A stretch of 64,000 nucleotides of DNA from Ruminococcus sp. (GTDB lineage: Bacteria; Bacillota; Clostridia; Oscillospirales; Acutalibacteraceae). The stretch spans positions 55,271 to 119,270 of the forward strand of contig JAFRDE010000018.1 in the NCBI GenBank assembly GCA_017403985.1, read 5' to 3'. How positions within the stretch are numbered: the first letter of the stretch is position 1; every line of letters begins with the position of its first letter. Under the pieces are notes generated by a model. That model saw only the letters and a list, made by a program, of their open reading frames with translations. It did not search any database and was not told where the DNA came from. Below are positions 6,292 to 50,847 of the stretch, one piece after another. Both the position numbers and the translations under genes were made by a program.

Positions 6292-6317
6292 AGCCCCGAA
6301 CATTTTTGTCCGGGGCT
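6292..6317 (-). terminator. Stem-loop between gatB and prsW-like gene
   Basis: Stem AGCCCCG/CGGGGCT with a 12-base loop in the 74-bp gap. On the minus strand no immediate T-run follows, so termination would be partial. Confidence 0.45.
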
Positions 6318-6335
6318 TTGCGATACATATCCTGT

Positions 6336-9202: not shown

Positions 9203-9203
9203 G

Positions 9204-9482
9204 TCATGCTCTCTTTCTGACGAGGAAGTGATCCTCCGCCTGTTCGGGGGCGTTTTTGAGGATCTCCCCGACGGGTAAGGATTCTTTGACCTCATCCGCG
9301 CGGAATGCGTTAGACAGGTTATTGATATTATCGAACTCGCCGCTCTTGACCTCGACGCTGTTGATCGTGTCGGCAAAGGCGACGATCTTCTGCATCTCTT
9401 CGGTCAGGCTGTCGAGATCCTTTTCATCGACAAACAGCTTGGAAAGCAGGGCGATGTTCTCGATATCTTCTCGTGTTACCAT
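9204..9482 (-). CDS. gatC: Asp-tRNA(Asn)/Glu-tRNA(Gln) amidotransferase subunit C
   Basis: A 92-residue stabilising subunit that wraps between GatA and GatB. It has the typical N-terminus VTREDIENIALLSKLFVD, the middle LTEEMQKIVAFADTINSV, and the C-terminal LRxD-like FRADEVKESLP. Start at 9482 is set by AAAGGAT upstream. First gene of gatCAB; the 230-bp gap to aspS upstream is mostly repeat sequence. Confidence 0.93.
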   Translation of the reverse strand: MVTREDIENIALLSKLFVDEKDLDSLTEEMQKIVAFADTINSVEVKSGEFDNINNLSNAFRADEVKESLPVGEILKNAPEQAEDHFLVRKRA

Positions 9483-9512
9483 AGTGTATATATCCTTTCT
9501 TCGGACTAAAAT

Positions 9513-9658
9513 GTCATTGCGAGGGAGCTTGCGACCGCGGCAATCCCACAAAGAGGGAATACACTTCTCCTCCAAACCGATTGCAACCGCCAAGGGGATT
9601 GCCACAGCCTGCCGCTTTGCGGCACCTCCCGTAGGGAGGCTATGGGCTTCGCAATGAC
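9513..9658. repeat. GTCATTGCGA inverted-repeat element E1 with nested two-hairpin repeat
   Basis: Begins GTCATTGCGA and ends with the inverted GCAATGAC. The interior holds GCAATCCCACAAAGAGG, also seen at 61410-61450, and a nested CACCTCCC/GGGAGG two-hairpin repeat at about 9603-9645. Related full-length elements are at 41707-41825 and 45684-45822. It fills most of the gap between aspS and gatC. Confidence 0.8.
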
Positions 9659-9712
9659 ACTGTTGCTATAGCGTCGAATTAATCAGCAGTTTCTCAAGGG
9701 GAAAGCTGATTA

Positions 9713-11458: not shown

Positions 11459-11489
11459 CTTTCATATTCCTTTCCAATGCTATGCATAA

Positions 11490-11543
11490 GGCGGGCTTTG
11501 CCCACACCTGATTATGATCGGGAGGAGCAAGCCCCTCCCCTAC
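11490..11543. repeat. Short intergenic double stem repeat
   Basis: GCGGGCTTTGCCC followed by GGGAGGAGCAAGCCCCTCCCCTAC. The right part resembles the ends of the GTAGGGACGA-type inverted repeats at 18782 and 49297 (reverse strand GTAGGGGAGGGG). It lies upstream of aspS. Confidence 0.45.
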
Positions 11544-11603
11544 AAAGGATAAAAATTCCCTATTCTGTAGTATTATAGCACAGTCGATCGGTAAAATCAA
11601 CAT

Positions 11604-11636
11604 AAAAATAGCTCCCCCGACAAGCGGGAGAGCTAT
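11604..11636 (-). terminator. Terminator of the amylase operon
   Basis: Stem ATAGCTC/GAGCTAT extended by CCCG/CGGG across one mismatch. On the minus strand TTTTTATG follows immediately. It lies 24 bp past the amylase stop. Confidence 0.8.
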
Positions 11637-11659
11637 CTTATGGATGCTGAATAATAATA

Positions 11660-14062: not shown

Positions 14063-14077
14063 GTTCTGTTACCTCCT

Positions 14078-15832
14078 TTAAGATTCTGCGGGGAATTTGC
14101 TAATGATTCCCGCGATAAAGCGCTGGATCAGCGTCGCGTCGATGATCGTTACTTCTTCGTCACCGTCAACGTCCGCGTTAAGAGCGTTCAGCGGCGAAGG
14201 CAGCGAGATCGACGCCTCATAGCGCTGGATATAAGTCACGTCAAGGATGCCGACGTCGCCGTCTTCATCCGCGTCGCCCAGAAGCGTCACGCCGATAGGC
14301 GGAGCATCGGTCGGAGCAGGCGGTGCATCGGTCGGCTGTACAGGCGGCTGCGTCTCGTACTCGGTCGGAGCGACAGAGCCGACGCTGTTCAGCACAAAGG
14401 TGCGCTGGGCATTCTTGTTATCGGAGCCCTGAACGTCGACGGTCGCTTGGTACAAACCGAGCTTGGTCGGCTTGAAGCTGTAGCTCGTATTACGGGTATA
14501 ATACGGGGTGTTCGCGTAATCGCCGTTCGGATCCAGGATCGTGTACTTGTAGAACAGCAGGTTCGTACCGATATGACCGCCGCCTGCCGCTACTTTAATC
14601 TGCGTGTTCGAGTTGTTCTGGATCTCGCCGCCGTTCGGGGTAACGGTCTTGATGTAGGGCGCGACCACCTCGCTGCCGTCCGCGATCACAAAGCTCTTGG
14701 AACGGCTGTTGAGGTTGCCCTTTGCATCCTTGAAATCATAGGTGATAGTGTAGGTACCGGCAGTCTGAGGCGTCCACATGATGCTGTTGCGGGTGCTGTA
14801 ATCGGACAGGACCGTAGTGGAGCTGCCGTTTGTCACAGAGAACTTGTAATAAACGGTGCCTTCACCCTCTGCCTCGGCGCTCAGTGTGATGCCGACGCCC
14901 TGATACTGCGGGGATTCCATGTCGGTCTTATACGAGGTCACCTGCAGGGGGCGGGTATCGTAGATCTCCCATGTATTCGTCTTGTTGTTATAGATGTAAT
15001 CGTTGCCCGGATAGGTCATGTCGCCGGTTTTTTGGGAATCGCTGCCGACGTTGAAGATGATCATGTTCAACGAGCTGTTTGTCACTTCATAGCGCCAGGT
15101 GTTTCCTTTGATTTTGGTCATCTTCACGCCCGGCCAAGCGGCATTCTTGATCGACTCGTTGCTTTTGTTCCACATATAGCAGTACACGCTGCCCCAGCCG
15201 GCTTCGTTCTCACAGTAGATATAGTTCTTGCCGGAGGTGCCGCCGCCCTGAGTCGGTTGCGGAGTGGTGGGGTTGGTGCCGCCGCCCTGAGTGGGCTGAG
15301 TGGTCGTGGGACCCTGAGTAGCCGGCGGGTTGGTGGGGCCCTGCGTCGGCTGCGAATCGGAACCCGCCTTGATGGCGTTCAGACCGGCAGAGGTAGAGGT
15401 AAAGTAGAATCTGACGGTATCGCCGGAAGGATTCCAGATGTGGAAGCAGTTAAAGCCATGATAGTTGCCCATCTGCAGATAATAGCTTCCGCTGCTTGCG
15501 GCAGACTGCACCGCAGGCGTTTTGACCGCGGAGTTCGCGGAGTTGGACACTGTCGATACGACGAAGCAATAGTCGTTGCTCGCGCCGGACAGGTCACAGT
15601 AGTAGTAGCCTTTCGAGCTATCATAAGTAAAGGTACCCGAAGGAGTCGAGCCGTTGAAGTTCGGGCTGTTGGTGGACTCACCCCACAGGTAATAGGTATC
15701 GGCGCCGGTGTCGGCAAGCTCTTCGGCTTCTTCCGCGCGAACGGTCAAAGCAAACGTCAGCATCGTGACAAGCAGCGCGAGACAAAGCAAAAGCGAAACC
15801 GCGCGCTTTGTCTGTTTACCCGTTGATCTCAT
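14078..15832 (-). CDS. Secreted non-catalytic starch-binding protein with dockerin
   Basis: 584 residues without a recognisable catalytic domain. Order: signal peptide (1-33); an N-terminal beta module of unknown type (about 45-155); a Pro/Thr/Gln/Gly linker (about 160-200); a CBM26-like module with IYCENEAGWGSVYCYMWN and AAWPGVKMTK (about 203-292); one or two Ig-like domains rich in Tyr (about 295-480); a Pro/Thr linker; and a type I-like dockerin (518-580). The dockerin carries two calcium loops, GDADEDGDV and ADVDGDEEV, each followed by an (L/I)D(V/A)T-IQR helix. It is first in the operon with the amylase, so it probably docks starch binding to a scaffold. A strong promoter and AAGGAGGG precede it. 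Confidence 0.88.
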   Translation of the reverse strand: MRSTGKQTKRAVSLLLCLALLVTMLTFALTVRAEEAEELADTGADTYYLWGESTNSPNFNGSTPSGTFTYDSSKGYYYCDLSGASNDYCFVVSTVSNSANSAVKTPAVQSAASSGSYYLQMGNYHGFNCFHIWNPSGDTVRFYFTSTSAGLNAIKAGSDSQPTQGPTNPPATQGPTTTQPTQGGGTNPTTPQPTQGGGTSGKNYIYCENEAGWGSVYCYMWNKSNESIKNAAWPGVKMTKIKGNTWRYEVTNSSLNMIIFNVGSDSQKTGDMTYPGNDYIYNNKTNTWEIYDTRPLQVTSYKTDMESPQYQGVGITLSAEAEGEGTVYYKFSVTNGSSTTVLSDYSTRNSIMWTPQTAGTYTITYDFKDAKGNLNSRSKSFVIADGSEVVAPYIKTVTPNGGEIQNNSNTQIKVAAGGGHIGTNLLFYKYTILDPNGDYANTPYYTRNTSYSFKPTKLGLYQATVDVQGSDNKNAQRTFVLNSVGSVAPTEYETQPPVQPTDAPPAPTDAPPIGVTLLGDADEDGDVGILDVTYIQRYEASISLPSPLNALNADVDGDEEVTIIDATLIQRFIAGIISKFPAES

Positions 15833-18781: not shown

Positions 18782-18888
18782 GTAGGGACGACCATCGGTC
18801 GTCCGCCGACAGAAACGCTTTTTTCCTATCTGAGGCTCATTCTGTCCGCAATGTCCGTCATTCTCGGACGAGCAATGCTCGTCCCTAC
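18782..18888. repeat. GTAGGGACGA inverted repeat D1
   Basis: Starts GTAGGGACGACC and ends GGACGAGCAATGCTCGTCCCTAC, so the outer 10-12 bases are inverted repeats about 107 bp apart. The right end itself is a hairpin (GACGAGCAATGCTCGTC). A sister copy is at 49297-49405. Confidence 0.75.
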
Positions 18889-37714: not shown

Positions 37715-37796
37715 AGATCGAAAAATCTGTATAAAACAATTGCAAATATAAAGGAATGCTTTTATAATGAAAACAAACAGAAAAGAGGAGAATGAA

Positions 37797-40553
37797 ATGA
37801 AAAGAGCACTATCGATCCTTTCCCTCATCATGGCGTTTTGTATCCTGCTGTCCTGTACGGTCACAAGCGCGTCAGCCGCGGAGGAACCTCAGCCGCCTTT
37901 TTATGTCCGTTATCAGTACGAAATGAGAGCGGCAGGTCTGCCGAAAACGATACAGGCACAGTTTGACTATGACCAAAACTTTTGCGAGGTCGCCTCCGAT
38001 TATTATACAGAAAACTATCCTTCGTATGTCGGTACGGGATTTATTTTTCCCCCTGCCACCGAGGAATATGGAAATCTGTACGATGTGAGCTATACGGTGA
38101 ACGATACGATCATTTCCTATACCTACACGCTCAAAAGCGGCAAAACGCTTGATGATTATATCGACGCAATTAACGCGATCCGCGAGAAAAACGGAGTTGC
38201 GCCTGTTGTTTCCCGCGAGGAAGTAACAAACACCTTCTTTCCTGTCTTTGATATCGTAATGAAGATCACCGACAACAGCTATGCCGCCTATCTTGCCAAG
38301 ATCACCGATCACAAGATCATCCAAGTCATCGACACAGACGGCAAAGAGCTGCGTGAAAACGGCAGACAGGACGGCGAAATATACGTTCACTGTTATAATA
38401 TCGGACTGCCCGACCCTGACGCTCCCGCTACTCCCGATGAAGCACAGAAGGACTACAAATACAGAGAGAAGCTGCTCAGCCAATACAGGCTATACGAAGA
38501 GCAGCTCACGGAATACGACGAGATCTATGAGCATAACGATGAAAACGGTGAGACCGACTGGGTGCTGATACAGGCAAATGCCGCTTCTGCGCATCCCGAT
38601 ATGGTAGGATGGACAAGTCCCGCGTACTTTGAATTCGGCAACCGCGTTCTGGATATCGAGGATCGATACGAGCCGTTCGCGTTCGGAATGGGCGTATACA
38701 GCGCAAAGCACGATAGCTTTTTCGACGTATCCGCACCTGAGCTGTATGAATTGGAAGACTTGGAAGACGTCTGGACAGAGCTTGGCGCGGGCAGGCTGAT
38801 GGGCGACATGGACGACAACAACATTCTTGAATGTATTGACGCCGCCTTGCTCCAGCGATGTCAGGCAGGCTTGATTGACTTTCCGATCGAGGATCGAAAC
38901 ATCCCCTCCGATATGGTGGAAAATGCGATCGGTTATTACTCCGACTTCAATCAGGACGGCGAGAGGAACCTACTCGACGTGACCGCGATCCAGCGGTATC
39001 TGGCGAATCTGCAATACCGTCCCGCAGGCTGGACGCCTTATCCAAACCATACCTATCCTACCGAACCAAAGCCCACAGAACAACAGCCTACTGTACCTGA
39101 ACCTACTCAACCTACGCCGACCCAGCCGGAGACAATACCGCCGACAGAGATCACTCCCACCGAGCCGGCTCCGACTCAGCCGACGCCGACCGAACCCGAC
39201 AAGCTTGCAACGCCGCAGATCACCGGCTTCAAAAGCACCGCCGAGGGCGTGGAGATCCATATCGGCGCTGTAGAAGGCGCGGAAAAATACCGCGTCTATT
39301 ATCGGAACAAAAACGGCAACTGGGTCAATATGGGTGAAACATCGACCGACATCTTTGTCGATACCGACGTCAAGACAGGTTCCTCCTATCGATACACCGT
39401 ACGCTGTATCAAGGCTGACCTGAGCGATTTCACCTCCGACTTCAACACTGACGGATGGAGTTATACCTATTATCCGACGCCGAAGATCACCAAATGCGAG
39501 GCAGTCAAGGACGGCGTAGAGATCACATGGGCGCCTGTCAAGGGTGCGGAGAAGTATCGCGTCTACTACAAGGGCAGCAAGGGCTGGACGAAGATGGCGG
39601 ACGTCAGCAGTACAAGCTATGTCGATACCGACGTCAGCGTCAAAAACCGGTACACTTACACCGTCCGGTGTGTCAGCAGCGACGGCACGCGTTTTATGAG
39701 CGACTATGACGCGAACGGAATCAGGTTCTATCTGGCAGATATACCCGTTATAGACCATTTCAACACTCGCATGGACGGTATTGATATTGAAGTAGATGCC
39801 ATTAAATCGATCGCTCGTATCTACCGCAAAACTTCTAATGGTTGGAAGCGTATCGCCGAGCTCGACACGCAGGATAACTGCGTCTTTCGCGATACCGACG
39901 TTGAGCCTGGCAAGACCTATACCTACACAGTGCGCAAAGTGGATGAAGACGGTACTTTTGTGAGTTGGTACAATACCTCCGGCTGGTCATATACATATAA
40001 AAAAGCTGACTGTCTGCCCGAATTGGAATACTTCGTATACAACGGTGACAATACCGCATTTGTTCATTTTAATAGCGATAACAAATTCGGAATCAAACAA
40101 TTCTATATCCACGTGATCATTGACGGCGACTATAAGGGTACCTTCCAAGTCCCCGATACGCCGGCTCTGCTCCAAGCGGACTTCTTTCAGCCGAATCAGG
40201 AGTATCTGCTCTATCTCGCCGGCATAGACAGCAGCGGCAATGAGATCACGCAGGAAGGAGAGCAGTGGATATCAACTCCCGCCCGGCCGACAAATCTGAA
40301 AACGGAAAAGCTCGATAACAGGAGATATTCCCTGACATGGTCGACCGCTAACTACAGTTCGTATTTGTACGAGGTCAATATCATATCCCAAGACGGAGAG
40401 TACGCGATCGATTCAGATGTTTTAAATGAAAAAGAATATACTTTTGATCTCAGCGAATATCCCGAAGATACCGAATGGATGATTTATGTTTACGACATCA
40501 ATGATGACGGAGTATCCCTATCATGCGAAAATATCAAGTTTAAAGAAACATAA
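37797..40553 (+). CDS. Large secreted protein with internal dockerin and Fn3-like repeats
   Basis: 918 residues. Signal peptide 1-27 (LSILSLIMAFCILLS, then TSASAAEE). An N-terminal domain of unknown type (about 28-330) is followed by a dockerin-like region (about 333-405) with weakened first loop GDMDDNNIL and a good second loop SDFNQDGER, each followed by D-QR helices. Then come a Thr/Pro/Glu linker (about 420-465), and three to four fibronectin-type repeats with Y+VYY(R/K) and WSYTY(Y/K) signatures (to residue 918). An internal dockerin is unusual. Start at 37797 follows AGAGGAG; an ATG at 37767 is less well placed. Probably a target or ligand of the upstream sigma/sensor pair. Confidence 0.8.
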   Translation: MKRALSILSLIMAFCILLSCTVTSASAAEEPQPPFYVRYQYEMRAAGLPKTIQAQFDYDQNFCEVASDYYTENYPSYVGTGFIFPPATEEYGNLYDVSYTVNDTIISYTYTLKSGKTLDDYIDAINAIREKNGVAPVVSREEVTNTFFPVFDIVMKITDNSYAAYLAKITDHKIIQVIDTDGKELRENGRQDGEIYVHCYNIGLPDPDAPATPDEAQKDYKYREKLLSQYRLYEEQLTEYDEIYEHNDENGETDWVLIQANAASAHPDMVGWTSPAYFEFGNRVLDIEDRYEPFAFGMGVYSAKHDSFFDVSAPELYELEDLEDVWTELGAGRLMGDMDDNNILECIDAALLQRCQAGLIDFPIEDRNIPSDMVENAIGYYSDFNQDGERNLLDVTAIQRYLANLQYRPAGWTPYPNHTYPTEPKPTEQQPTVPEPTQPTPTQPETIPPTEITPTEPAPTQPTPTEPDKLATPQITGFKSTAEGVEIHIGAVEGAEKYRVYYRNKNGNWVNMGETSTDIFVDTDVKTGSSYRYTVRCIKADLSDFTSDFNTDGWSYTYYPTPKITKCEAVKDGVEITWAPVKGAEKYRVYYKGSKGWTKMADVSSTSYVDTDVSVKNRYTYTVRCVSSDGTRFMSDYDANGIRFYLADIPVIDHFNTRMDGIDIEVDAIKSIARIYRKTSNGWKRIAELDTQDNCVFRDTDVEPGKTYTYTVRKVDEDGTFVSWYNTSGWSYTYKKADCLPELEYFVYNGDNTAFVHFNSDNKFGIKQFYIHVIIDGDYKGTFQVPDTPALLQADFFQPNQEYLLYLAGIDSSGNEITQEGEQWISTPARPTNLKTEKLDNRRYSLTWSTANYSSYLYEVNIISQDGEYAIDSDVLNEKEYTFDLSEYPEDTEWMIYVYDINDDGVSLSCENIKFKET

Positions 40554-40625: not shown

Positions 40626-41660
40626 TTATACCATATCGGCGAGGTCGAGGATCAGCCTCTCGGTCTTATCCCAGCCGAGGCAGGGGTCGGTGATCGACTT
40701 GCCGTAGCAGCCGCCGTCGACCGCCTGATTGCCGTCCTCGATGTAGCTCTCGATCATGAAACCCTTGACCATGCGCTCAAGCTCCTTATTATAGCGGCGC
40801 GCCGCCATGACCTCTTTGACGATGCGCGGCTGTTCAAAGGGATTCTTGCCGGAATTGGAGTGGTTCGTGTCGATGATGCAGGCGGGGTTCTTGAATCTGC
40901 CCGAAGCGTACAGACGCAGCAGGTGCGTCATGTCCTCATAATGATAGTTCGGCAGGCTCTCGCCGTGCTTGTTCATATAGCCGCGCAGGATCGCGTGGGC
41001 GTAGGGGTTGCCGTGGGACTGAACCTCCCAGCCGCGGTAGATGAAGGTATGGCCCTTCTGCGCTGCGGTGATGGAGTTCATCATAACGGACAGGTCGCCG
41101 CCGGTGGGGTTCTTCATGCCGACGGGGATATCCAGACCCGAGGAGACGAGGCGGTGCTGCTGGTTCTCGACCGAGCGTGCGCCGACTGCGACATAACAGA
41201 GGATGTCGTCCAGATAGCGGTGGTTCTCGGGGTAGAGCATCTCGTCCGCGCAGGAGAAGCCGGTCTCGCGCAGGGCACGGATGTGCATGGAGCGGATCGC
41301 GACGATGCCCTTGAACATATCGGGCTTTTTCTCGGGATCGGGCTGATGGAGCATGCCCTTATAGCCCGAGCCGGTGGTGCGGGGCTTGTTGGTATAGATG
41401 CGCGGGATGATGAAGATCTTGTCTTCCACCTTGTCCTGCACCTTACGCAGACGGCTGATATAGTCAATCACGCTGTCCTCTCTGTCGGCGGAGCAGGGAC
41501 CGATGATCAGCACGATGCGGTCGTCCTTGCCGGCAAATATATCCTGCACCTGACGCTCGCGGTCGGCGACGATCTCGCGGAGAGCATCGTCGAGGGGATA
41601 CATCTTCTTGACCTCCATCGGGATCGTCAGCTTGCGTTCAAATTCCATATTCATGTTCAT
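40626..41660 (-). CDS. aroF: 3-deoxy-7-phosphoheptulonate (DAHP) synthase, class I
   Basis: First enzyme of the shikimate pathway: condenses phosphoenolpyruvate and erythrose 4-phosphate. 344 residues, AroFGH type. Motifs IGPCSAD, KPRTTGSGYKG, VGARSVENQQHR, MKNPTGGD and DTNHSNSGKNPFEQP carry substrate and metal ligands. Start at 41660 follows GGAAGGTG; the open frame upstream is not supported. It is the last gene of an eight-gene operon, after tyrA, separated by a repeat element. The paralogue is not distinguishable (feedback by Phe, Tyr or Trp), so the symbol is approximate. Confidence 0.94.
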   Translation of the reverse strand: MNMNMEFERKLTIPMEVKKMYPLDDALREIVADRERQVQDIFAGKDDRIVLIIGPCSADREDSVIDYISRLRKVQDKVEDKIFIIPRIYTNKPRTTGSGYKGMLHQPDPEKKPDMFKGIVAIRSMHIRALRETGFSCADEMLYPENHRYLDDILCYVAVGARSVENQQHRLVSSGLDIPVGMKNPTGGDLSVMMNSITAAQKGHTFIYRGWEVQSHGNPYAHAILRGYMNKHGESLPNYHYEDMTHLLRLYASGRFKNPACIIDTNHSNSGKNPFEQPRIVKEVMAARRYNKELERMVKGFMIESYIEDGNQAVDGGCYGKSITDPCLGWDKTERLILDLADMV

Positions 41661-41706
41661 AATAATACACCTTCCGTTTTTTATAAAACGCATTTATCGT
41701 TTTCGT

Positions 41707-41835: not shown

Positions 41836-42690
41836 TTATTTATTAAAATACGCTCTTCTCTTGGTACTCAGCCGCATTTTCTCCCTAAGCTCCTCTACCC
41901 TGCCGTCGCGGATCATGTCGCGGATGGCTTCAAACTCGCCGAGAAAAATGTTCATGTATTTCAAGAGCGGCTCGCGGTTGAGCATAAACAGCTCGCTCCA
42001 CATCAGGTCGTTGATGTTCGCGATACGGGTCAGGTCGCGGAAGCTGTCGCCGGTGTAATCCACCAGATGCTCGTTGTCAGAGCAGGTCATCAGCGACACC
42101 GCGATACAGTGGGTCAGCTGGGACAGATAGCCGATCATCTCGTCGTGCTCCTCGGGAGATAATACCGAGATGCGCGAGAAGCCCAATATCCTGCCCAAGC
42201 CCCCGATCCAACGAATCGCTTCGGCTGTATTTTTCTCTGTGGGAACAATAATGAAGTTCGCGCCGCGGAAGATCGCGTCGTCGGCGTTCTCCACGCCGTA
42301 GACCTCGCGGCCCGCCATCGGGTGGGAGGCGATAAACTCGACGTCTCCGCGCAGCATATCCTGGATATCGTAGACGATACAGCTCTTGACGCCGGTGACG
42401 TCCGTGATCATCGCGCCCTCTTTGAAATAGCTCTGATACTGCGCGATCCATTCTTTGAACACCTGCGGATACAAGCCGAAGATCACCGCGTCCGCGGAAC
42501 CGACGACCTCCCTGTCCACCTCGACGGAGCCGTCGTCGATGATATGGTTTTCCAAAGCATAGTCGATCGCCGCCTGACGCTTGTCGATCGCGGTCACATG
42601 GTAGCCGAGGCGTTTGAGCGCCTTGGCGTAGCTGCCGCCGATCAAGCCTAAGCCGACGATCAATATTCTCGATTTACTGATCCATTCCAT
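41836..42690 (-). CDS. tyrA: Prephenate dehydrogenase
   Basis: Oxidative decarboxylation of prephenate to 4-hydroxyphenylpyruvate, the tyrosine branch. 284 residues. Rossmann motif ILIVGLGLIGGSYAKAL at residues 9-25; TDVTGVKS and SHPMAGREVYGVENA with the catalytic His region; YLSQLTHCIAVSL in the C-terminal helical dimer domain. No ACT domain. Its ATG lies 17 bp inside the end of aroA; AGGAGTGG serves as the ribosome binding site, so translation is coupled. Confidence 0.93.
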   Translation of the reverse strand: MEWISKSRILIVGLGLIGGSYAKALKRLGYHVTAIDKRQAAIDYALENHIIDDGSVEVDREVVGSADAVIFGLYPQVFKEWIAQYQSYFKEGAMITDVTGVKSCIVYDIQDMLRGDVEFIASHPMAGREVYGVENADDAIFRGANFIIVPTEKNTAEAIRWIGGLGRILGFSRISVLSPEEHDEMIGYLSQLTHCIAVSLMTCSDNEHLVDYTGDSFRDLTRIANINDLMWSELFMLNREPLLKYMNIFLGEFEAIRDMIRDGRVEELREKMRLSTKRRAYFNK

Positions 42691-43921
42691 AAGTTAAATC
42701 CACTCCTAAGTCTTGCAAACGTTCAAAAAAGTCCGGGAAGCTTTTGTTCACCGCTTCCGCTCCCTCGATCACACCGCCGGTCGCTGTCAGCAGTACCGAT
42801 AAAGCCATCACAATACGATGGTCGTTGTGACCGCTGAGCGGTTCTGTCGGCGCGCACAGCTCGCCGGGATGAACGATCACGTCGTTTTCTTCAACGTCTA
42901 CGGTGATACCGAACTTTTTCAGCTCGCTCTTCATCGCATTCGCCCGGTCGCTCTCCTTGATCTTCAGACGGTGGGTACCGGTAAAGCGTCCGCCGCCGGT
43001 CAGCGCCGCGACCGCAAACAGGATCGGTCCCAGATCGGGACAATCCGAAATATCGATCGCGTCAAAGTTCACGATATTCAGCGCTTCATTTATTTTCTTA
43101 AAAAGAATTTTATAAACCTTGTCGCCCTGCGCGGAATCCTCGTTCAAACCCTTAACCATGACATTTGATCCCGCGTAATTGAGCGCTTCAAAGAACGCGG
43201 CGTTGGAATAATCGCCCTCGACGGTCACGTCGGCGGGAGTATACTGTCCGCCGGATATATCGATCACCAATCGATTCTCTTCGGAGTCGTTCAGCGTCCT
43301 GATAAAGACTCCGAACGTCTTCAGCGCCGCAATCGTCATATCGATGTAAGGGCGGCTCTCTACAGGCTCGCGGATCCTCAAATAACTCTTTTTATTCAGC
43401 AACGGAAGCGCGAACATCATCCCCGAAAAGAACTGTGAGCTGATATCGCCGGGACACACAAAATCAGCGCTGTACATCGGCCCCTGAACGGTCACATGAT
43501 TCGAGAATTTTTCAAACCTCAGCTTTTGCAGGCGGGCGAGCGCCTCATAAAAGTCGAGCGGACGCATCATCAGCCGAGCCGAACCGGTCAGCACGCGCTC
43601 TTCCTGTGAGAGCAGACAGATCGGGATGAAAAACCGCAGCGTGCTGCCGCATTCATTACAGGGCAGTACCGCCGTCATGCCGAGGGGCTTCATCACGTCG
43701 ACACCCTTCACATACGCCGTATCGCCGTCAAGCGTGATCTGAGCGCCCAGCGAGCGCAGACAGGCGATCGTCGCCTTGACGTCCTCGGAATACGCGAGGC
43801 TGCGGACGATGCTTTCGCCCTGTGCCAAGCCGGCGCATATCAACAGGCGATGCGCCATGCTTTTACTCGGCGGCGCGGTTACAAGGCCGCGCGCTCTTGA
43901 CGGACGTATCTCAACTCTCAT
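42674..43921 (-). CDS. aroA: 3-phosphoshikimate 1-carboxyvinyltransferase (EPSP synthase)
   Basis: Transfers the enolpyruvyl group from PEP to shikimate 3-phosphate. 415 residues. PPSKSMAHR near the N-terminus binds phosphate; NECGSTLRFFIP is the NAGTxxR-equivalent loop; KIKESDR and NDHRIVMALS are C-terminal PEP-binding motifs. The first motif deviates from the usual LGNAGTAxRP, which matters for glyphosate sensitivity class. It overlaps aroQ by 11 bp and tyrA by 17 bp. Confidence 0.95.
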   Translation of the reverse strand: MRVEIRPSRARGLVTAPPSKSMAHRLLICAGLAQGESIVRSLAYSEDVKATIACLRSLGAQITLDGDTAYVKGVDVMKPLGMTAVLPCNECGSTLRFFIPICLLSQEERVLTGSARLMMRPLDFYEALARLQKLRFEKFSNHVTVQGPMYSADFVCPGDISSQFFSGMMFALPLLNKKSYLRIREPVESRPYIDMTIAALKTFGVFIRTLNDSEENRLVIDISGGQYTPADVTVEGDYSNAAFFEALNYAGSNVMVKGLNEDSAQGDKVYKILFKKINEALNIVNFDAIDISDCPDLGPILFAVAALTGGGRFTGTHRLKIKESDRANAMKSELKKFGITVDVEENDVIVHPGELCAPTEPLSGHNDHRIVMALSVLLTATGGVIEGAEAVNKSFPDFFERLQDLGVDLTYGMDQ

Positions 43922-44345
43922 GGCGTTCCCTCAGCAAATCCATCGCCTCAAGATAGCCGTTCACGCCGTGACCGGTGATCGTCGCGAAGCAAGCGAGGCG
44001 CACATAGCTGATCTGACGGAACTCCTCGCGCTTGTCCACCTCGGAGATATGAACCTCCACCGCGGGGATCGCCACCGCTTTCAGCGCGTCCAAAATCGCC
44101 ACGCTGGTGTGGGTATAAGCGCCGGGGTTGATGACGATACCGTCCATGTTTCCGTACGCTTTTTGTATGATATCGACCAGATCGCCCTCGTGGTTGCTCT
44201 GGTACAGCTCGACGTCCGCTCCGATCTTCTGCGCATGATCCCTGATCATATCGCAGAGGTCGGCATAGGTCGTTCTGCCGTAGATATCCGGTTCGCGGAT
44301 ACCGAGCATATTCAGGTTAGGTCCGTTGATGACTAATATTTTCAT
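43911..44345 (-). CDS. aroQ: 3-dehydroquinate dehydratase, type II
   Basis: Dehydrates 3-dehydroquinate to 3-dehydroshikimate. 144 residues, the normal type II size. INGPNLNMLGIREPDIYG holds the active-site lid region with catalytic Tyr; YQSNHEGDLVD, INPGAYTHTSVAI and VEVHISEVDKREEFR are family blocks. Start 44345 follows GGGAGAAACC. Overlaps aroA by 11 bp. Dodecameric in other bacteria. Confidence 0.96.
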   Translation of the reverse strand: MKILVINGPNLNMLGIREPDIYGRTTYADLCDMIRDHAQKIGADVELYQSNHEGDLVDIIQKAYGNMDGIVINPGAYTHTSVAILDALKAVAIPAVEVHISEVDKREEFRQISYVRLACFATITGHGVNGYLEAMDLLRERHES

Positions 44346-44375
44346 TGGTTTCTCCCTTCGGTCGATCAATTCTGC

Positions 44376-44424: not shown

Positions 44425-45657
44425 CTACTCTCCGTTAATGATGGAATCCGCTACGTCCGCGGGCTCGCAGTCGCCGTCGATGATATAGTCGGCAGTGTTC
44501 AGATAGGTATCGATGCGCTTTTTGTACAGGCGCATGATCTTCTCCTTTTTATCCGCGAGCGGTCTGTCGCCGGTCGGGATCAGATATTCGGGCGAGCGGT
44601 CGATGAAAAAGATCGCGCCGTTGTGCCGCAGCGCCCTGACGTTTTCGGGGCGCATCACCGCGCCGCCGCCGAGGGAGATCACCTTACCGCTGAGAGCGGA
44701 GACCTCTTTGATGACTTCGGTCTCCAGATCACGGAAGTACTTCTCCCCTTTTTCTTTGAAGATGGTCGGGATATGTCCCTCGCGCTCGACGATCAGTTTA
44801 TCCGTATCGATCAACTCGCGTTCGAGCTGTTCGGAAACGATCTTTCCAACTGTGCTTTTGCCGGAAGCGGGCATGCCGCTCAGTACAATATTTCTTTTAT
44901 CGAAATATATTTCATCATATATTTTGTTAGTCAGTTGAATAACGTCCAGCTCTGTATCCAGGAACTTTTCCGCCGCCAATAACGCCTGCGCGACCAGCAT
45001 ATACAGCCCGCCTTCGGTATCGATACCGCGCTCTTTCGCAGACAGCACCAGTTCAGTGTTGAGCGGGTTATAAATGACGTCGATCACGCCGCTGAGCTTC
45101 GGGAATCTGTCCAACTCGATCGGACAATCAAAAATGTTCGGATACATCCCGCAGGGAGTCGCGTTAATGATGACGTCCGCGTCGCTGTGATCGGCGTACG
45201 CCTGATCATAGGTGATCGCTCCCTCGCACGCGTGTCGGCTGACACGCAAAATCTCCTTCGCGCCCATGCGCTCGCTCACGGCGCGCGCGGTCAGCGAGGT
45301 ACCGCCGAAACCGAGGATCAGCACCTTTTTGTACTTCATCACCACGCCCGCACGCTCGATCAGCGCCTTCATCCCGCCGAAATCGGTGTTGTACCCATAC
45401 AGCACGCCGCCGCGGTTGACGACGGTATTCACCGCGCCGATCGCCTGAGCGTCGGGGTCGATCTCATCCAGCAGCGGGATCACGTCCTGCTTATAGGGAA
45501 TGGTCACATTGATCGCTTTAAAATTCTTTTGCAGAATAAAGTCTTGCAATTCTTCTTTTTTTAGTTCTTTTAAGGAATATTGGTAATATCCTACTTTTTC
45601 ATGTATCTCTTTGGAAAAGCTGTGCGGAAGCTTCTCCCCGATCAAACCGTAGTCCAT
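44425..45657 (-). CDS. aroE-aroK: Shikimate dehydrogenase-shikimate kinase fusion
   Basis: 410-residue fusion of two consecutive pathway steps. AroE part (1 to about 255): YGLIGEKLPHSFSKEIH, the catalytic Lys in NVTIPYKQDV, GAVNTVV, GFGGTSLTARA (NADP loop) and the C-terminal LYMLVAQALLAAEKF. AroK part (about 262-410): Walker A GMPASGKSTVG, shikimate-binding DTDKLIVEREG, the RDLETEVI helix and GGGAV, then the lid Arg in GDRPLAD. The junction is short (QLTNKIYDEIYFDKRN), so domains are close. Ribosome binding site AGGAAAC. All motifs of both activities are intact. Confidence 0.95.
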   Translation of the reverse strand: MDYGLIGEKLPHSFSKEIHEKVGYYQYSLKELKKEELQDFILQKNFKAINVTIPYKQDVIPLLDEIDPDAQAIGAVNTVVNRGGVLYGYNTDFGGMKALIERAGVVMKYKKVLILGFGGTSLTARAVSERMGAKEILRVSRHACEGAITYDQAYADHSDADVIINATPCGMYPNIFDCPIELDRFPKLSGVIDVIYNPLNTELVLSAKERGIDTEGGLYMLVAQALLAAEKFLDTELDVIQLTNKIYDEIYFDKRNIVLSGMPASGKSTVGKIVSEQLERELIDTDKLIVEREGHIPTIFKEKGEKYFRDLETEVIKEVSALSGKVISLGGGAVMRPENVRALRHNGAIFFIDRSPEYLIPTGDRPLADKKEKIMRLYKKRIDTYLNTADYIIDGDCEPADVADSIINGE

Positions 45658-45823: not shown

Positions 45824-46915
45824 TCATTTTTTCAGCCAGTCCGTCCCGTATCTTTGCGCCAGCAAATCGGCTATCGCCAACGCGGTCACGCTGTCGATCA
45901 CCACTCGCGCGCGGTGGATGATCGCGGGATCGTGACGACCCTTTAATTCTAATACGGAATTTTCTTGCTTCATAAAATCGACCGTATCCTGCGCCTTGAA
46001 GATCGAAGGCGTCGGCTTGACGGCACTGCGGAACACGATGGGCATACCGTTGGTGATACCTCCGTTGACTCCGCCGTTATGATTGGTTTTTGTTTTTATT
46101 TCTTTATCGGAAATATGGAAATTGTCATTGTAATCGGAGCCTTTGCCGTTCACCATCTCGAAAGCGTCGCCGAACTGCACGCCTTTGACAGCGGGAACAG
46201 AGAACAGCGCGTGACTCAGCACGCCCTCGACGGTATCGAACCACGGCTCGCCTACGCCCGCGGGCATTCCGAGCACCGCCGTTTCAAGAACGCCGCCGAC
46301 GCTGTCGCCCTCGCCGGCTGCCGCTTCGATAGCCGCCTTCATTTCCTCTCCCCTGTCGCTGTCGAGCACGGCAAAGTCGAGGTCGTTCAGCTTCGCGATA
46401 TCCGCGCGCAGATCGCTGAAATCAACGTCTTTCACGCCGGCACAGCTTTGGATATGTGTGCCGATATCAATTCCCTTTTCGCGTAAAGCAGATATCAATA
46501 TTGCGCCCGCCGCGGCCAAAGCCGCCGTCACGCGTCCCGAGAAATGACCGCCGCCGCGATAATCCTCAAAGCCGTGATATTTAGCATAGGCGGTATAGTC
46601 CGCGTGGCCCGGACGCGCCAGCGAGCGGGTCGCGGAATAATCCTTGCTGTGCTGGGCAGTGTTGGGGATCAGAACGGTCAAAGGCGTTCCGGTGGTCTTA
46701 CCCTCAAACACGCCGCTGACGATTTGAAATTCATCCGCCTCATGACGCGCCGTGCTGATCTTGCCGACAGGGCGGCGCTTATCAAGCTGAGCGCGGATAA
46801 ACTCTTCATTGATGGTGATTCCCGGCGCCAAACCGTCGAGCACCGCGCCGATATACGCGCCGTGGCTCTCGCCGAACAGCGTTAATGCAATTGAATTGCC
46901 GAATGTATTTTTCAT
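45824..46915 (-). CDS. aroC: Chorismate synthase
   Basis: Converts EPSP to chorismate with reduced FMN. 363 residues. [14 protein letters not shown] with the catalytic His, [29 protein letters not shown], and [27 protein letters not shown] at the C-terminus are family signatures. Start ATG 46915 follows AGGAAGA. The stop sits two bases from the repeat element E3, and the upstream gap contains F2. Confidence 0.97.
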
Positions 46916-46942: not shown

Positions 46943-47029
46943 GGTTACTCGCGTGAATACTCACGCTCAAACATCTATATAATTCCTCAGTCAGCTTACG
47001 CTGACAGCTCCTTTTCCCAAAAGGAGCCT
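46943..47029. repeat. Two-hairpin repeat F2, long form
   Basis: Begins GGTTACTCGCGTGAA, then TCACGCTCAAACATC, AATTCCTCA, hairpin GTCAGC-TTAC-GCTGAC, hairpin AGCTCCTTTT-CCC-AAAAGGAGCC. The last base pair overlaps the aroB stop codon (47028-47030). The long form recurs at 48052-48138. Confidence 0.85.
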
Positions 47030-48032
47030 ATTTGATGATCATCTGTATCAAAGGGTATAATTCTTCAAAAGAAAATTCTTTCATTTCAAACTGCCCGGGC
47101 TCCGGAACGGTTACCACCGTTACCCTGCCGCCGACGGACTTTTTATCATGCGTCATCGCTTCAAATATCTTTTCGGGAGCCGCATGGACGACGGTCGGGA
47201 GCCGCAGATTCTCTAAAATCCCGATCAGGCGCGGACGAAGCTCATCGCTGACCATCGGGATCATGCCGACCGCGACACATTCGCCGTGATACAGACCGCC
47301 GCAGCTCTCGATCCCGTGACCGATCGTATGACCGAAGTTGAGGATCTTTCTGAGCCCCTGCTCCTTTTCATCCTGCTCCACGACATTCTTCTTGATCATT
47401 AACGAACGCGTGATGATCTCGTCCATACTTGCTGTTATATTTCCTTTTTCGAATAATTCGAAAAGTTCTTTATCGGAGGTCAACCCCATTTTCAGCGCCT
47501 CGGCAAGCCCTTCGGCAATCAGCCGCTCATCGAGCGTATCGAGCAGATCGAGATCGACCAGCACCTTTTTCGGCTGATAGAACGCGCCGACGATATTCTT
47601 GACGCCGTCGAGATTCACCGCCGTCTTGCCGCCGATGGAGCTGTCCACCTGACTGAGCACGGTGGTGGGGATATTATAAAAATCGATCCCGCGCATGTAT
47701 GCCGACGCGGCAAAGCCCGCCAGATCGCCGACCACGCCGCCGCCGACCGCGACAACCGCGTCCTTTCGCGAGAAACCGCGTTTCAGCATTTCGGAAAGGA
47801 TCGTGCTGAACCGGGGGATACTCTTGCTGTCCTCTCCCTGCGGGACGGTCATCACAAAGCCGTCCTTTGCCTGTACCGCGACCGTTTGCGCGTATGCTTC
47901 CGGCACACCGTCGTCGGTCAGCACCAACACCTTGCGGTCGAGGTCCAGGTACTCCCCTGCCTTTTGCAAAGCGCCGCGCTCGATGACGATATCGTAGCTG
48001 TCCGCGCCTAAATCCATATGTAATATGTTCAT
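47028..48032 (-). CDS. aroB: 3-dehydroquinate synthase
   Basis: Cyclises DAHP to 3-dehydroquinate using NAD and a divalent metal. 334 residues. VPQGEDSKSIPRFS, GGGVVGDLAGFAASAYMRG, PTTVLSQVDSSIGGKTAVN, the metal ligand Glu in EGLAEALKMG, and His in LNFGHTIGHGIE are clear. Start at ATG 48032 follows AAGGATG; the in-frame ATG at 48041 lies inside that site. The stop codon overlaps repeat F2. Confidence 0.96.
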   Translation of the reverse strand: MNILHMDLGADSYDIVIERGALQKAGEYLDLDRKVLVLTDDGVPEAYAQTVAVQAKDGFVMTVPQGEDSKSIPRFSTILSEMLKRGFSRKDAVVAVGGGVVGDLAGFAASAYMRGIDFYNIPTTVLSQVDSSIGGKTAVNLDGVKNIVGAFYQPKKVLVDLDLLDTLDERLIAEGLAEALKMGLTSDKELFELFEKGNITASMDEIITRSLMIKKNVVEQDEKEQGLRKILNFGHTIGHGIESCGGLYHGECVAVGMIPMVSDELRPRLIGILENLRLPTVVHAAPEKIFEAMTHDKKSVGGRVTVVTVPEPGQFEMKEFSFEELYPLIQMIIK

Positions 48033-48051
48033 CTGAATCATCCTTAGAAAA

Positions 48052-48160: not shown

Positions 48161-49264
48161 TTAATCGTCCTTCAAAATCACTTCATCGGAATAATGTCCA
48201 ACCACCTTCAGCATATCGCAGTGGAGCGATAAATGCCGCAGCATATCCGCGCCGTTCTGACCCGTCTCGTCGCCCTCGGCTTCGATATAGAAGTAATACT
48301 CCCACGCGAGGTCCTTCATCGGGCGCGAACGCAGCGCGCGCATGTTGAAGCCGTAGGAGCTGAGCACGTTCAGCGCCTGTGCCAGAGCGCCCGCCTCGTT
48401 CTTGACGGTGAACATCAGCATGAAGCGGCTGTCGCCCGCCGTGTTCACCTGCTTGTTCTCCACGCGGGAGAATACCGCGAAGCGGGTGGAATTCAGCGCG
48501 CTTTCGTTGATATCGTGGTCGAGCTTCTCCAAGCCGTATAATCTTGCGGTCTCCGCCGAAGCGATTGCCGCGACGCTTTTGTCGCCGCCGTCCACGACAG
48601 CCTTCGCCGCCTTGGCGGTGTTGGCGTATTCGACGGTCTGATAGCCGTGCTCGCGGATATACTCGGCGCACTGCGCCAGCGCCTGCGGATGGCTGACAAC
48701 CGTTTTGATATCCTTCAAAGCCGCTCCGGGAACGCCCAAAAGATGATGGCTGATCCGCAGGGTGTAGATACCGTTGACGTACAGCGAACCTTGAAACATC
48801 ATGTCCATCACCTGACCGACCTCGCCGGCGTAGCTGTTCTCGATCGGTAACACACAGCAGTCGCAGTCGCCGCGCTCCACCGCCTCATACGCCTCGCGGA
48901 AGTCGCGGTAAGCGCACAGATTGCCGTATGGAAAGATCTTCTTCGCGGCGATGTTGGCGTACGCGCCCGCGATGCCACTGTAAGCGATCTTCACGCCGCT
49001 GATGATATGCTCCTGATACTGCTTTGACACCGCCATCTCATCCTGCAAAAACTTCACATAGTAGGAGCGGATATCGTGATCCTTGATATAGGCGGCGTTC
49101 TTCTCGATCACCGCCTGCTCGCGCTTCGCGTCGTATATCTGCAGACCGCGTTCCTTTTTATATTCGGCGATCACCCGCGCCGCCAGCATCCGGCGCTCAA
49201 ACAGCCCCGCCATTTCCTTGTCTATCTCATTGATCTGAGTACGCGCGTCCTGCAATTGATCCAT
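48161..49264 (-). CDS. pheA: Chorismate mutase-prephenate dehydratase (P-protein)
   Basis: Makes prephenate and then phenylpyruvate, the phenylalanine branch. 367 residues. AroQ-type chorismate mutase at about 1-90 (RTQINEIDKEMAGLFERR, RVIAEYKK); prephenate dehydratase about 100-275 (IAYSGIAGAYANIAA, CVLPIENSYAGEVGQV, and NSTRFAVFSR with the catalytic Thr); ACT domain about 285-367 (KNEAGALAQALNVLSSYGFN, RSRPM) for Phe feedback. Start 49264 follows GGAAGGTG. First large gene of the operon, preceded by a Phe/Tyr-rich leader peptide, terminator, heptamer array and repeat D2. Confidence 0.95.
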   Translation of the reverse strand: MDQLQDARTQINEIDKEMAGLFERRMLAARVIAEYKKERGLQIYDAKREQAVIEKNAAYIKDHDIRSYYVKFLQDEMAVSKQYQEHIISGVKIAYSGIAGAYANIAAKKIFPYGNLCAYRDFREAYEAVERGDCDCCVLPIENSYAGEVGQVMDMMFQGSLYVNGIYTLRISHHLLGVPGAALKDIKTVVSHPQALAQCAEYIREHGYQTVEYANTAKAAKAVVDGGDKSVAAIASAETARLYGLEKLDHDINESALNSTRFAVFSRVENKQVNTAGDSRFMLMFTVKNEAGALAQALNVLSSYGFNMRALRSRPMKDLAWEYYFYIEAEGDETGQNGADMLRHLSLHCDMLKVVGHYSDEVILKDD

Positions 49265-49296: not shown

Positions 49297-49405
49297 GTAG
49301 GGATGACCATTGATCATCCGAGAATGACGGATGTATAATCTGTCGAAAACATCAGATTAGGAATAAATCGTTTCAACCAAGCGGACGAGCAATGCTCGTC
49401 CCTAC
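49297..49405. repeat. GTAGGGACGA inverted repeat D2
   Basis: Left end GTAGGGATGACC, right end GGACGAGCAATGCTCGTCCCTAC; the right 20 bp equal those of D1 at 18782-18888. Lies between the attenuator terminator and pheA, inside the expected operon transcript. Confidence 0.75.
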
Positions 49406-49437
49406 GAAAAAACGGGTGAGGGCGCAGCCCTCCCGCA

Positions 49438-49468: not shown

Positions 49469-49501
49469 AAAAAAGCGGCTCTGCCCGAAAACAGAACCGC
49501 T
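49469..49501 (-). terminator. Attenuator terminator of the aromatic operon
   Basis: On the minus strand AGCGGTTCTG, 8-base loop TTTTCGGG, CAGAGCCGCT (10-bp stem with one mismatch), then TTTTTT. It lies 32 bases after the leader peptide stop and about 200 bp before pheA. Confidence 0.85.
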
Positions 49502-49583
49502 AATCATCCTACAGCACCTGTTACATTCGAGCATTAATCCTTTGCACGGCAATAAAAGCCCGCATAAAAGCGCGCGAATGTAA
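49482..49583 (-). promoter_or_regulatory. Candidate Phe/Tyr attenuator with alternative pairings
   Basis: Three minus-strand segments. Region 1, TTACATTCG (49583-49575), lies in leader codons 16-19. Region 2, TGCTCGAATGTAA (49533-49521), starts right after the leader stop. Region 3, TTCGGGCA (49489-49482), is the terminator loop plus two stem bases. Region 2 pairs perfectly with region 1 over 9 bp, or with region 3 over 8 bp (one G-U). These pairings are exclusive because both use CGAA. Stalling on region 1 would free region 2 to capture the terminator loop. The weak point is that region 3 covers only two bases of the terminator stem. Confidence 0.6.
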
Positions 49584-49629
49584 AGTAAAAGCAGTTATTC
49601 ATTTTTTCACGAACCGTATTTTTCATCAT
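49534..49629 (-). CDS. Phe/Tyr-rich leader peptide
   Basis: 31 codons, ATG ATG AAA start with AAAGGAG six bases upstream and a TAA stop. The central 15 residues are CFYFTFARFYAGFYC: five Phe and three Tyr in 13 codons. The rest is basic/polar (MMKNTVREKMNN before, RAKD after). It is the first cistron after a good promoter, is followed by a terminator hairpin, and precedes pheA and seven more aromatic biosynthesis genes. That arrangement matches leader peptides such as E. coli pheL. A function in transcription attenuation by charged tRNA(Phe) and tRNA(Tyr) levels is inferred. Confidence 0.8.
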   Translation of the reverse strand: MMKNTVREKMNNCFYFTFARFYAGFYCRAKD

Positions 49630-49657
49630 GAACAGCTCCTTTCACCGTGATGTGTCA

Positions 49658-49686
49658 ATGATAACACGTTAAAGCGCAAAAGTCAA
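49658..49686 (-). promoter_or_regulatory. Promoter of the aromatic amino acid operon
   Basis: Minus strand TTGACT (49686-49681), 17-bp spacer, TATCAT (49663-49658). Transcript start near 49651, giving a 22-nt leader to the leader-peptide ATG with AAAGGAG in place. Confidence 0.8.
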
Positions 49687-49785: not shown

Positions 49786-50811
49786 TTATGCGATAGTATA
49801 CATTCCGGCTTCGCTTCGCTGGATCAGCGTCGCGTCAATAACGGTAACGTCGCTGTCGCCGTCCACATCGCCGAGGGGCTTATAAAAATCATACGCACTG
49901 ATGATACTCGCGTTATAGCGCTGGATCACGGTCGCGTCGATGATATCACATTCGCCGTTACCGTCCGCATCGCCCTTGATATTGCGGGTGATGATCCTGC
50001 AGTGGTTCCACGGATCGCCGCCCATATAATCTGTCTCCACCAGCTCAGCGAGCATTTCGTCCGTCAGAACGCCCGCCTTATACGCCTTTGTAAGGGTATA
50101 GAGCTTGTCATCGACAAAGATGCTCGGCTCATAAGACGAGGTGGAATAGAAGAGATAATCGCCGAGCTTTTCCTCCGCGATGACCGTCAGGTAAACGCCG
50201 TATCCCTCCACGTTGAAGTCAACGATATAGGCGGGCGTGCAGTTGAAGCGATAGGAGTTGTGGATCGTGATCTTATCCGCATAAAAATATTCGCGGCTTT
50301 GATACTGCTCGTTCGCGGCTTCCTCGATATCTTCGGCAGTCAGCGCAGCGCCCTTCTCCCACAGCTCCTTAGTATGATTTCTCGGCTCGGTCGGCTCCGG
50401 TTCGCCGATCGGCGGCGGACAGGGCTGCGCTTTGATACATCCCTCGTACCAGCCGTCCCCTGCGCCGTCATAATCGGGCGCGACCTCGATGTTGTAATAC
50501 TCGTTGCTCTCGGTGACGACATAGTTATTATCCACGCCTGCGGGATACCATGTGCTTGCCTTTGAGCCGTCCTCGGAATAGACGATCTTCAACTCATCCC
50601 CCGCCTTCAGCGCAGTCTGATACAGCACATAATGGTTGTCGAAATTCGCCGACTCCATCAGATAGCTTTTGCTGATCGTCCAACCGTTCATCGTCCCCAC
50701 TACATAGTAGCCGGGGACCGGCTTTTCTGCGGCGCTTGCCGAAACGGTTGAAAGGGCAAAACAACTCAGCAAAACGATTGCTGAAAATAATAATGATAAT
50801 ACCTTTTTCAT
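49786..50811 (-). CDS. Secreted dockerin protein (module 2)
   Basis: 341 residues. Signal peptide 1-28; an Ig/CBM-like domain (about 30-130) beginning YYVVGTMNGWTISKSYLM, reminiscent of starch-associated beta modules but not assignable; a short Pro/Glu linker (PIGEPEPTEP); an unknown alpha/beta domain (about 150-265); and a C-terminal dockerin with loops GDADGNGEC and GDVDGDSDV each followed by I(I)DAT-IQR helices (about 275-338). Start at 50811 follows GGAGGAATC. Last gene of the sigma/sensor/dockerin module; 36 bp past the sensor gene stop. Confidence 0.82.
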   Translation of the reverse strand: MKKVLSLLFSAIVLLSCFALSTVSASAAEKPVPGYYVVGTMNGWTISKSYLMESANFDNHYVLYQTALKAGDELKIVYSEDGSKASTWYPAGVDNNYVVTESNEYYNIEVAPDYDGAGDGWYEGCIKAQPCPPPIGEPEPTEPRNHTKELWEKGAALTAEDIEEAANEQYQSREYFYADKITIHNSYRFNCTPAYIVDFNVEGYGVYLTVIAEEKLGDYLFYSTSSYEPSIFVDDKLYTLTKAYKAGVLTDEMLAELVETDYMGGDPWNHCRIITRNIKGDADGNGECDIIDATVIQRYNASIISAYDFYKPLGDVDGDSDVTVIDATLIQRSEAGMYTIA

Positions 50812-50847
50812 GTTGATTCCTCCTTCAATCATAAAATGTTTCTCTGA

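Follow-up and report, generated by a model that had tools for sequence, protein, structure and literature searches.

Ahead of an eight-gene aromatic amino acid operon in this Ruminococcus genome, a leader was recognized that is very likely a real attenuator, with a mechanism of the classical pheL/trpL kind. All positions refer to the window, the whole stretch of 64,000 nucleotides that was analyzed. On the strength of its sequence, the element can be read with high confidence as a ribosome-mediated transcription attenuator, and it is likely that Tyr is sensed as well as Phe. The lineage, the breadth of occurrence, the dual-residue control of a whole pathway and the apex-invading antiterminator seem to be new. 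The features of the leader and the operon are the following.

49658-49686, minus strand: sigma-70-type promoter, TTGACT-17-TATCAT (consensus scan)
49636-49642, minus strand: Shine-Dalgarno (SD) sequence, AAAGGAG (direct reading)
49534-49629, minus strand: leader peptide ORF, 31 codons (ORF list)
49575-49583, minus strand: region 1, UUACAUUCG, within leader codons 16-19 (helix list)
49518-49533, minus strand: region 2, UGCUCGAAUGUAACAG, its first base right after the stop codon (helix list, swap tests)
49482-49494, minus strand: region 3, CUGUUUUCGGGCA, terminator apex and loop (helix list, swap tests)
49474-49501, minus strand: intrinsic terminator hairpin, 12 pairs including G-U, UUCG loop (scan)
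48161-49264, minus strand: pheA, fused chorismate mutase - prephenate dehydratase, SD GGAAGG (PF01817 and PF00800)
47028-48041, minus strand: aroB, 3-dehydroquinate synthase (Pfam)
45824-46915, minus strand: aroC, chorismate synthase (Pfam)
44425-45657, minus strand: aroE-aroK fusion, shikimate dehydrogenase - shikimate kinase (PF08501 and PF01202)
43911-44369, minus strand: aroQ, type II dehydroquinase, start at 44369 or 44336 (Pfam)
42674-43921, minus strand: aroA, EPSP synthase (Pfam)
41836-42690, minus strand: tyrA, prephenate dehydrogenase (PF02153 and PF20463)
40626-41693, minus strand: aroF, DAHP synthase, start at 41693 or 41660 (PF00793; TIGR00034 above its cut-off)

The -35 box TTGACT (49686-49681) and the -10 box TATCAT (49663-49658) are separated by 17 nt on the minus strand. 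The leader ORF (49629-49534) starts with an ATG at 49629 or 49626 and translates to MMKNTVREKMNNCFYFTFARFYAGFYCRAKD. Its core, FYFTFARFYAGFY, contains 5 Phe and 3 Tyr, that is, 8 of 13 residues; given 7.6% Phe plus Tyr in the operon proteins, a single place would reach at least 8 of 13 with a binomial probability of 1e-6, uncorrected for the choice of place. The terminator hairpin is followed by a U-run to about 49468, and its sequence is the sole copy in the window in a search with up to 3 mismatches. The leader RNA folds with -58.8 kcal/mol (z -3.0), and none of 200 shuffles was as good. All eight operon genes lie on the minus strand, as the leader does, and their identities were confirmed by Pfam, with the ACT domain of pheA scoring slightly below the Pfam cut-off. 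A preliminary description of this DNA had proposed the promoter, the SD, the 31-codon ORF with its stop, the terminator, and pheA with seven more aromatic genes, as well as the 8 of 13 Phe/Tyr residues; all of these are confirmed on the minus strand and by the ORF translation. The operon, described there as about 9.6 kb, actually measures 8.85 kb when counted from the terminator through its final gene (49474-40626).

The gap between the terminator and pheA is about 200 nt and contains a repeat element, GTAGGGACGAGCATTGCTCGTCCGC (49381-49405, minus strand). Near copies of it are located at 18782-18806 (plus strand) and 18864-18888 (minus strand), where shuffles expect none, and it looks like a small interspersed repeat inserted into the operon leader. 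The genes on both flanks of the operon (49786-50832 and 37767-40553) encode secreted-looking proteins with dockerin-like repeats, as judged by eye from the translations.

Two rival pairings share region 2 and are mutually exclusive. In the first, region 1 UUACAUUCG (49583-49575) pairs with CGAAUGUAA (49529-49521) at 9 of 9 positions. In the second, UGCUCGAA (49533-49526) pairs with UUCGGGCA (49489-49482) of region 3 at 8 of 8 positions, including one G-U. The preliminary description had reported both, as 9 bp with leader codons 16-19 or 8 bp with the terminator loop, and the helix list bears this out; that description had missed an extension of the antiterminator, in which AACAG (49522-49518) pairs with CUGUU (49494-49490). 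Region 2, as UGCUCGAA-UGU-AACAG, thus pairs with CUGUU-UUCGGGCA of the terminator. Since this partner is the apex and loop of the terminator, the antiterminator would enter the terminator by way of the apex. When the gap-free helices of the window leader were listed blind, the terminator, the 1:2 pairing and the 2:3 pairing occupied ranks 1 to 3.

An ORF rich in end-product codons, an intrinsic terminator, exclusive pairings, and downstream genes that make Phe and Tyr are all found here, as expected of an attenuator. In the proposed mechanism, transcription would start near 49651, and a ribosome would follow RNA polymerase along the leader. When charged Phe- and Tyr-tRNA are ample, the ribosome would reach the stop codon and cover region 2, allowing the terminator to form and transcription to stop before pheA. 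With one or the other tRNA uncharged, the ribosome would stall on the Phe/Tyr codons and cover region 1, the stall on codons 14-22 being the position that does so; region 2 would then pair with region 3, the terminator would be broken, and the eight-gene operon would be read. On an untranslated leader, region 1 would take region 2, and the terminator would remain. The footprint and the stall geometry would be those of classical attenuation. Were the ribosome to stall as late as the final Phe-Tyr pair (codons 25-26), part of region 1 would stay free, and therefore not all Tyr codons need act. Both kinds of codon would be present in the leader because the operon makes both amino acids, and in relatives with an operon that makes only Phe, the leader has Phe codons only.

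Comparison among relatives supports both pairings. The blind helix list also places the terminator, 1:2 and 2:3 as the top three in L006; in L003 and L004 the terminator and 2:3 are present and 1:2 is absent from the gap-free list, with a bulge or mismatch there, and L046 and L086 give different helices. In the distant L147, a 12-pair 1:2 helix is formed by region 1 UGCUUUCGUUCG and region 2 CGAACGAAAGCA, and 2:3 is weak. The third base of the Thr codon in region 1 varies among relatives (ACA/ACC/ACG), and its partner in region 2 follows as U/G/C, as in L001 (UUACA/UGUAA), L179 (UUACC/GGUAA) and L188 (UUACG/CGUAA). In most relatives region 2 matches these changes; as they leave the peptide unaltered, RNA pairing is the likelier reason for the match. 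Misfits are L185, with ACC opposite C, and L172, with ACU and a shifted partner. Some near relatives (L185) have imperfections in the 1:2 pairing, and in L046, L184 and L239 it is weak or lies at another place.

Because MAFFT misaligned region 2 near one-base insertions, swap tests were used instead of column counts. The duplex energy of each leader's own region partners was compared with that of partners from other leaders over 20,000 permutations, in 23 of 29 leaders after removal of six near duplicates. The energies were -15.0 (own) versus -12.5 (swapped) kcal/mol for 1:2, and -16.2 versus -13.8 kcal/mol for 2:3, and for neither pairing was any of the 20,000 permutations as good. With 12 hand-picked diverged leaders, 29 (1:2) and 7 (2:3) of 20,000 were as good, and with a wider region 1 the numbers were 34 and 0. 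Six controls (1:3, two upstream and three reversed) gave 2,617 to 15,244 of 20,000. The own partner is the single best in just 7 of 23 leaders for 1:2 and 5 of 23 for 2:3, which is expected if relatives share segments; the swap test reduces the effect of relatedness and does not remove it. Its automatic segments missed the pairings of Treponema leaders and scored weaker pairs there.

The leader peptide and the terminator are found in all 18 near-relative loci with a pheA at least 75% identical and upstream sequence present. Each of the 18 matches the covariance model at E < 1e-20 and carries ARFYAGFY, or a variant of it, as its core; 4 of them had been used in the model. L177 and L182 are two further near relatives, without upstream sequence, and stand outside this count. 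The label Ruminococcus is attached to 10 of the 18 loci, and sources named in titles include goat, roe deer and reindeer; the closest PheA (96%) is from goat ileum (L186). A promoter of near-identical TTGACTTTTGCGCTTTAACGTGTTATCAT type is located at the same position in L003, L006, L178, L180, L183 and L184 by eye, and SD-like sites are also found 5' of the related leaders from the scans, in which an SD was a requirement. In L002 and L004, about 55 extra nt with an inverted repeat lie between the -10 box and the SD, relative to the window.

In the first draw of 59 genomes, PheA is 77-90% identical in five besides the window's own; four of these share the leader, and the contig of the fifth stops before the leader position. 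The covariance model gave E below 1e-25 solely in G000, G012, G017, G023 and G035, and no other congener among the 59 fell under 1e-4, including G026, with a PheA 56% identical. A second match in the window's own genome (G000:C13:37434, E 3.7e-4) was judged by eye to be a terminator behind a gene of no relation, and therefore matches near 1e-4 are not taken as evidence. In a wider search, a match was obtained in 25 of 197 genomes, with values below 1e-7 only in the own genome and G052, G371, G429 and G441; two weaker matches (L240, L246) were inspected by eye and no leader was seen. The core peptide has no exact match in viral contigs. The genome draws overlap, since L174, L175, L176 and L225 are contigs of L003, L002, L004 and L006. 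The peptide, the pairings and the terminator recur in relatives, in line with the sequence checks that the preliminary description had set.

This conservation bears on the possibility that the chief role of the leader is in translation coupling or in the access of Rho, the terminator having little effect. Loose spacing is indicated by the extra sequence between promoter and leader in L002 and L004 and between terminator and pheA in the window. The terminator with its U-run and the antiterminator partner are nevertheless among the most conserved parts across relatives, and this account is regarded as extremely improbable.

Systematic screening was extended to the pheA genes of the family and of the order, presumably Oscillospirales judging from the named relatives. 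The scan called ORFs 7-45 codons long that follow an SD and have 5 or more Phe/Tyr within 12 residues; a stricter cut asked for 6 in 12. Outside the 139 upstream regions scanned are L012-L030 (distant PheA), L167-L168 (duplicates), the partial places G286, G315, G550 and G587, and places that gave no locus. Such ORFs precede 25 of the 139 pheA genes, whereas 20 rounds of dinucleotide shuffling gave 1.25 on average and never more than 4; the 25 include near duplicates (L001-L004; L031/L071; L035/L036), L001 being the window itself. At the stricter cut, 19 of 139 regions remain and the reverse strand gives 0, compared with 1 at the looser cut. Phe/Tyr ranks first among residue pairs at the stricter cut (19 versus 11 for Arg/Ser), while Arg/Ser ties with it at the looser cut (25 of 139 each). 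The other 114 upstream regions contain no such ORF at the looser cut, among them L009 and L011, where pheA lies directly behind another coding sequence by eye.

A chance ORF before an ordinary terminator, for example that of the upstream gene, would be the simplest alternative, and the leader does lie between a same-strand gene (49786-50832) and pheA. That gene has its own terminator-like hairpin at 49748-49721, and therefore the leader probably opens a transcription unit. The conservation of peptide, pairings and terminator and the rarity of such ORFs in shuffles (mean 1.25 versus 25 of 139) contradict a chance origin, leaving it a probability close to nil.

Eight of the 25 leaders are of the window's type, called type A. 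A second architecture is that of MFFSAYQYFYYFKKDCSSL; here a GGACUGC of the leader finds its partner in a GCAGUCC past the stop codon, and YFYYF followed by KKDC or similar is seen in L010, L044, L093, L129, L130, L139, L149 and L112. For 15 of the 17 non-A leaders (two near duplicates removed), the swap test between ORF and downstream sequence gave 0 of 20,000, with 3,829 for the reversed control. The downstream partner overlaps the 5' arm of the terminator by eye, and the wiring of the second architecture may differ from that of type A. In a scan of 150 loci with ORFs of up to 75 codons, in which some genomes are counted twice, aroB is the next gene in 133 loci, and a candidate leader precedes 56 of these. 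All 56 candidates ahead of pheA-aroB contain both Phe and Tyr; L048 (long ORF), L075 (end of the upstream gene) and L214 (far away) are likely false positives. The next gene is aroF in 7 of the 150 loci, where the SD-requiring scan found L086 and L262, from one genome.

The relation of leader codons to operon products was analyzed by mapping the window's eight proteins onto 19 fetched leader-bearing operons; the downstream sequences of L002, L003, L035, L071 and L130 are not part of this mapping. Fifteen operons contain tyrA, one is a pheA-aroF operon, one is L257, and two are cut short (L006, L269). With the window included, both Phe and Tyr codons are present in the leaders of 16 of 16 tyrA-containing operons. 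The leaders of three pheA-aroF loci, two of them from Treponema, are Phe-only, and these represent at most two independent cases. In G586 (L086/L262), pheA-aroF stands without the other genes over the following 8 kb, behind a leader with 7 Phe and 0 Tyr. The Treponema leaders L218 and L221 (MIFGITFFTFAFFSFFAFFFFGRNC...) likewise carry Phe only, and behind them pheA-aroF is accompanied by none other of the eight genes over 2.3 kb (L284, to the contig end) and 9.3 kb (L285). L257 has no tyrA match and possesses aroB, aroEK, aroQ and aroA, and its leader (L031) has both residues. The operons were chosen for having a leader, and a Phe-only leader would pass the same filter. As far as these sequences go, the codon mix of the leader is one that follows the gene content of the operon.

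This pattern favors combined control by Phe and Tyr, as the preliminary description had proposed. The competing variant, nested in the same attenuation mechanism, is that only Phe is sensed and the Tyr codons are passengers. It draws on the AroR leader of Corynebacterium glutamicum, which has Phe-Tyr-Phe and, according to a review, shows no effect of Tyr (PMC11802643), and on the Phe-only leaders within the group itself (L086; Treponema L218, L221). It is at odds with the Tyr codons in 16 of 16 tyrA operons and their absence from the three pheA-aroF loci, and with leaders that are richer in Tyr than in Phe (F1 Y5, F2 Y6, F2 Y5 and F3 Y6). Sensing of Phe alone is therefore rated as rather unlikely; the codon pattern speaks for the proposed combined control, and the report on AroR speaks against it.

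A different sensor could be the nascent peptide itself, which would detect free Phe or Tyr in the ribosome tunnel instead of tRNA charging; TnaC-like arrest is the model for this. In type A, a core R-[FYLW]-[FY]-[AG] recurs beyond what codon identity would demand. Most leaders of other architecture and the Treponema leaders lack that core, and residues other than Phe/Tyr vary. The core may also reflect a small codon hairpin, whose covariation is not significant, and tunnel sensing is considered very improbable beside the reading of tRNA charging. As for that hairpin, R[FY][FY]AG-type core codons could form one with the Phe/Tyr codons in its loop in L001, L046, L147, L184, L216 and L236; as a covarying element it was rejected, the swap test for the RFYAG codons giving 2,187 of 20,000.

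For Firmicutes, the usual account of amino acid control centers on T-boxes. The T-box riboswitch (RF00230) reads tRNA charging and controls termination; it differs from the window leader in reading the tRNA directly, without a peptide. In the Bacillus cereus group, tyrosine biosynthesis is reported to be under T-box control (PMC2494555). RF00230 has no match in the window at the gathering score, and a T-box consensus pattern was found before 0 of 139 pheA genes; a T-box was accordingly rejected as the identity of the leader. No Rfam covariance model matches the window at the gathering score, and the only sub-threshold match, FourU (49383-49425, plus strand, E 0.14), falls on the repeat, outside the leader; a known Rfam leader was likewise rejected. 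The window's genome has eight T-box matches, three of them over the cut-off, and a T-box-like element, with a match below the cut-off, precedes pheS. The contrast with T-boxes drawn in the preliminary description thus holds within this genome, and it seems that the lineage has T-boxes but relies on a peptide leader for the control of Phe/Tyr biosynthesis. In L065 and L066, two sub-cut-off T-box-like elements lie close together on contig C62, each before a short helix-turn-helix-like ORF by eye.

The pheL leader of Escherichia coli carries Phe codons, is not known to carry Tyr codons, and stands before pheA only, whereas in the window Phe and Tyr codons precede eight genes. The two are alike in having a Phe-codon leader, a terminator with an antiterminator, and a gene for a fused chorismate mutase - prephenate dehydratase. 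According to the review, E. coli pheL and trpL are leader-peptide attenuators, and ribosome stalling on AroR (Neshat 2014, cited therein), with Phe-Tyr-Phe before an aroF operon, raises transcription, the leader responding to Phe and not to Tyr (PMC11802643). AroR belongs to another phylum and is reported as Tyr-insensitive and as having a shorter Phe/Tyr run than the window leader. The uORFC-13-1 motif of Acholeplasma aroF is a candidate Phe-containing upstream ORF beside a terminator (PMC8632094); it differs in preceding aroF only, in its genus, and in having at least 1 Phe codon, with no Tyr codons described in the section on the motif. Candidate his leader-peptide attenuators were recognized by comparative genomics in three Firmicute lineages (PMC9413887); these concern histidine, with three to five His codons in a row, and other lineages. 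The leader was called unusual in the preliminary description, and so it is; it is not unique, given AroR and the his leaders, and it is recurrent in the order (25 of 139). Among the papers listed by a literature search, with most subscription journals outside its coverage, none was recognized as an account of Phe/Tyr leader peptides in these Clostridia or in Treponema.

The same element was found in two other settings. In L236-L239, from four genomes of one genus in another family, a type A leader with the common core VR[FY]FAG and a terminator precede an ORF similar to ABC transporter substrate-binding proteins. The ORF of L237 is PF04392 in Pfam, and its best NCBIfam model is TrpX, below its cut-off. 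This suggests peptide attenuation of aromatic amino acid uptake. In Treponema, the covariance model found leader loci at L218:1869-1986 and L221:1850-1967, with a homologous terminator, and it gave no match in 3 of 5 Treponema loci. By eye, the L218 pairings are UUUUACAUU/AAUGUAAAA for 1:2 and GUCCGAAAAG/CUUUUCGGGU for 2:3. L218 has no SD, and its start codon is immediately behind the -10 box, so that its leader peptide may have a leaderless start. L221 has a weak SD at an upstream start only. A transfer of the element together with pheA from Clostridia into Treponema is a fair reading of these loci.

The chances are about even that the leaders constitute a class of dual-residue attenuators that is so far undescribed, widespread and in part mobile, presumably with gut-type Clostridia of the Oscillospirales as hosts. 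Such a class would read Phe and Tyr charging jointly, gate the whole shikimate-Phe-Tyr operon, and have its codon mix retuned to the operon products; in one family it would have come to stand before a gene for a TrpX-like ABC transporter, and it would have entered Treponema together with pheA.

With a T-box-like element before pheS and peptide attenuators before pheA, a single cell seems to contain two kinds of tRNA-charging sensors. The leaders amount to an experiment of nature, in which the rule that leader codons equal operon products is testable over dozens of leaders. If Tyr sensing is true, one short peptide would integrate two amino acid signals for a branched pathway.
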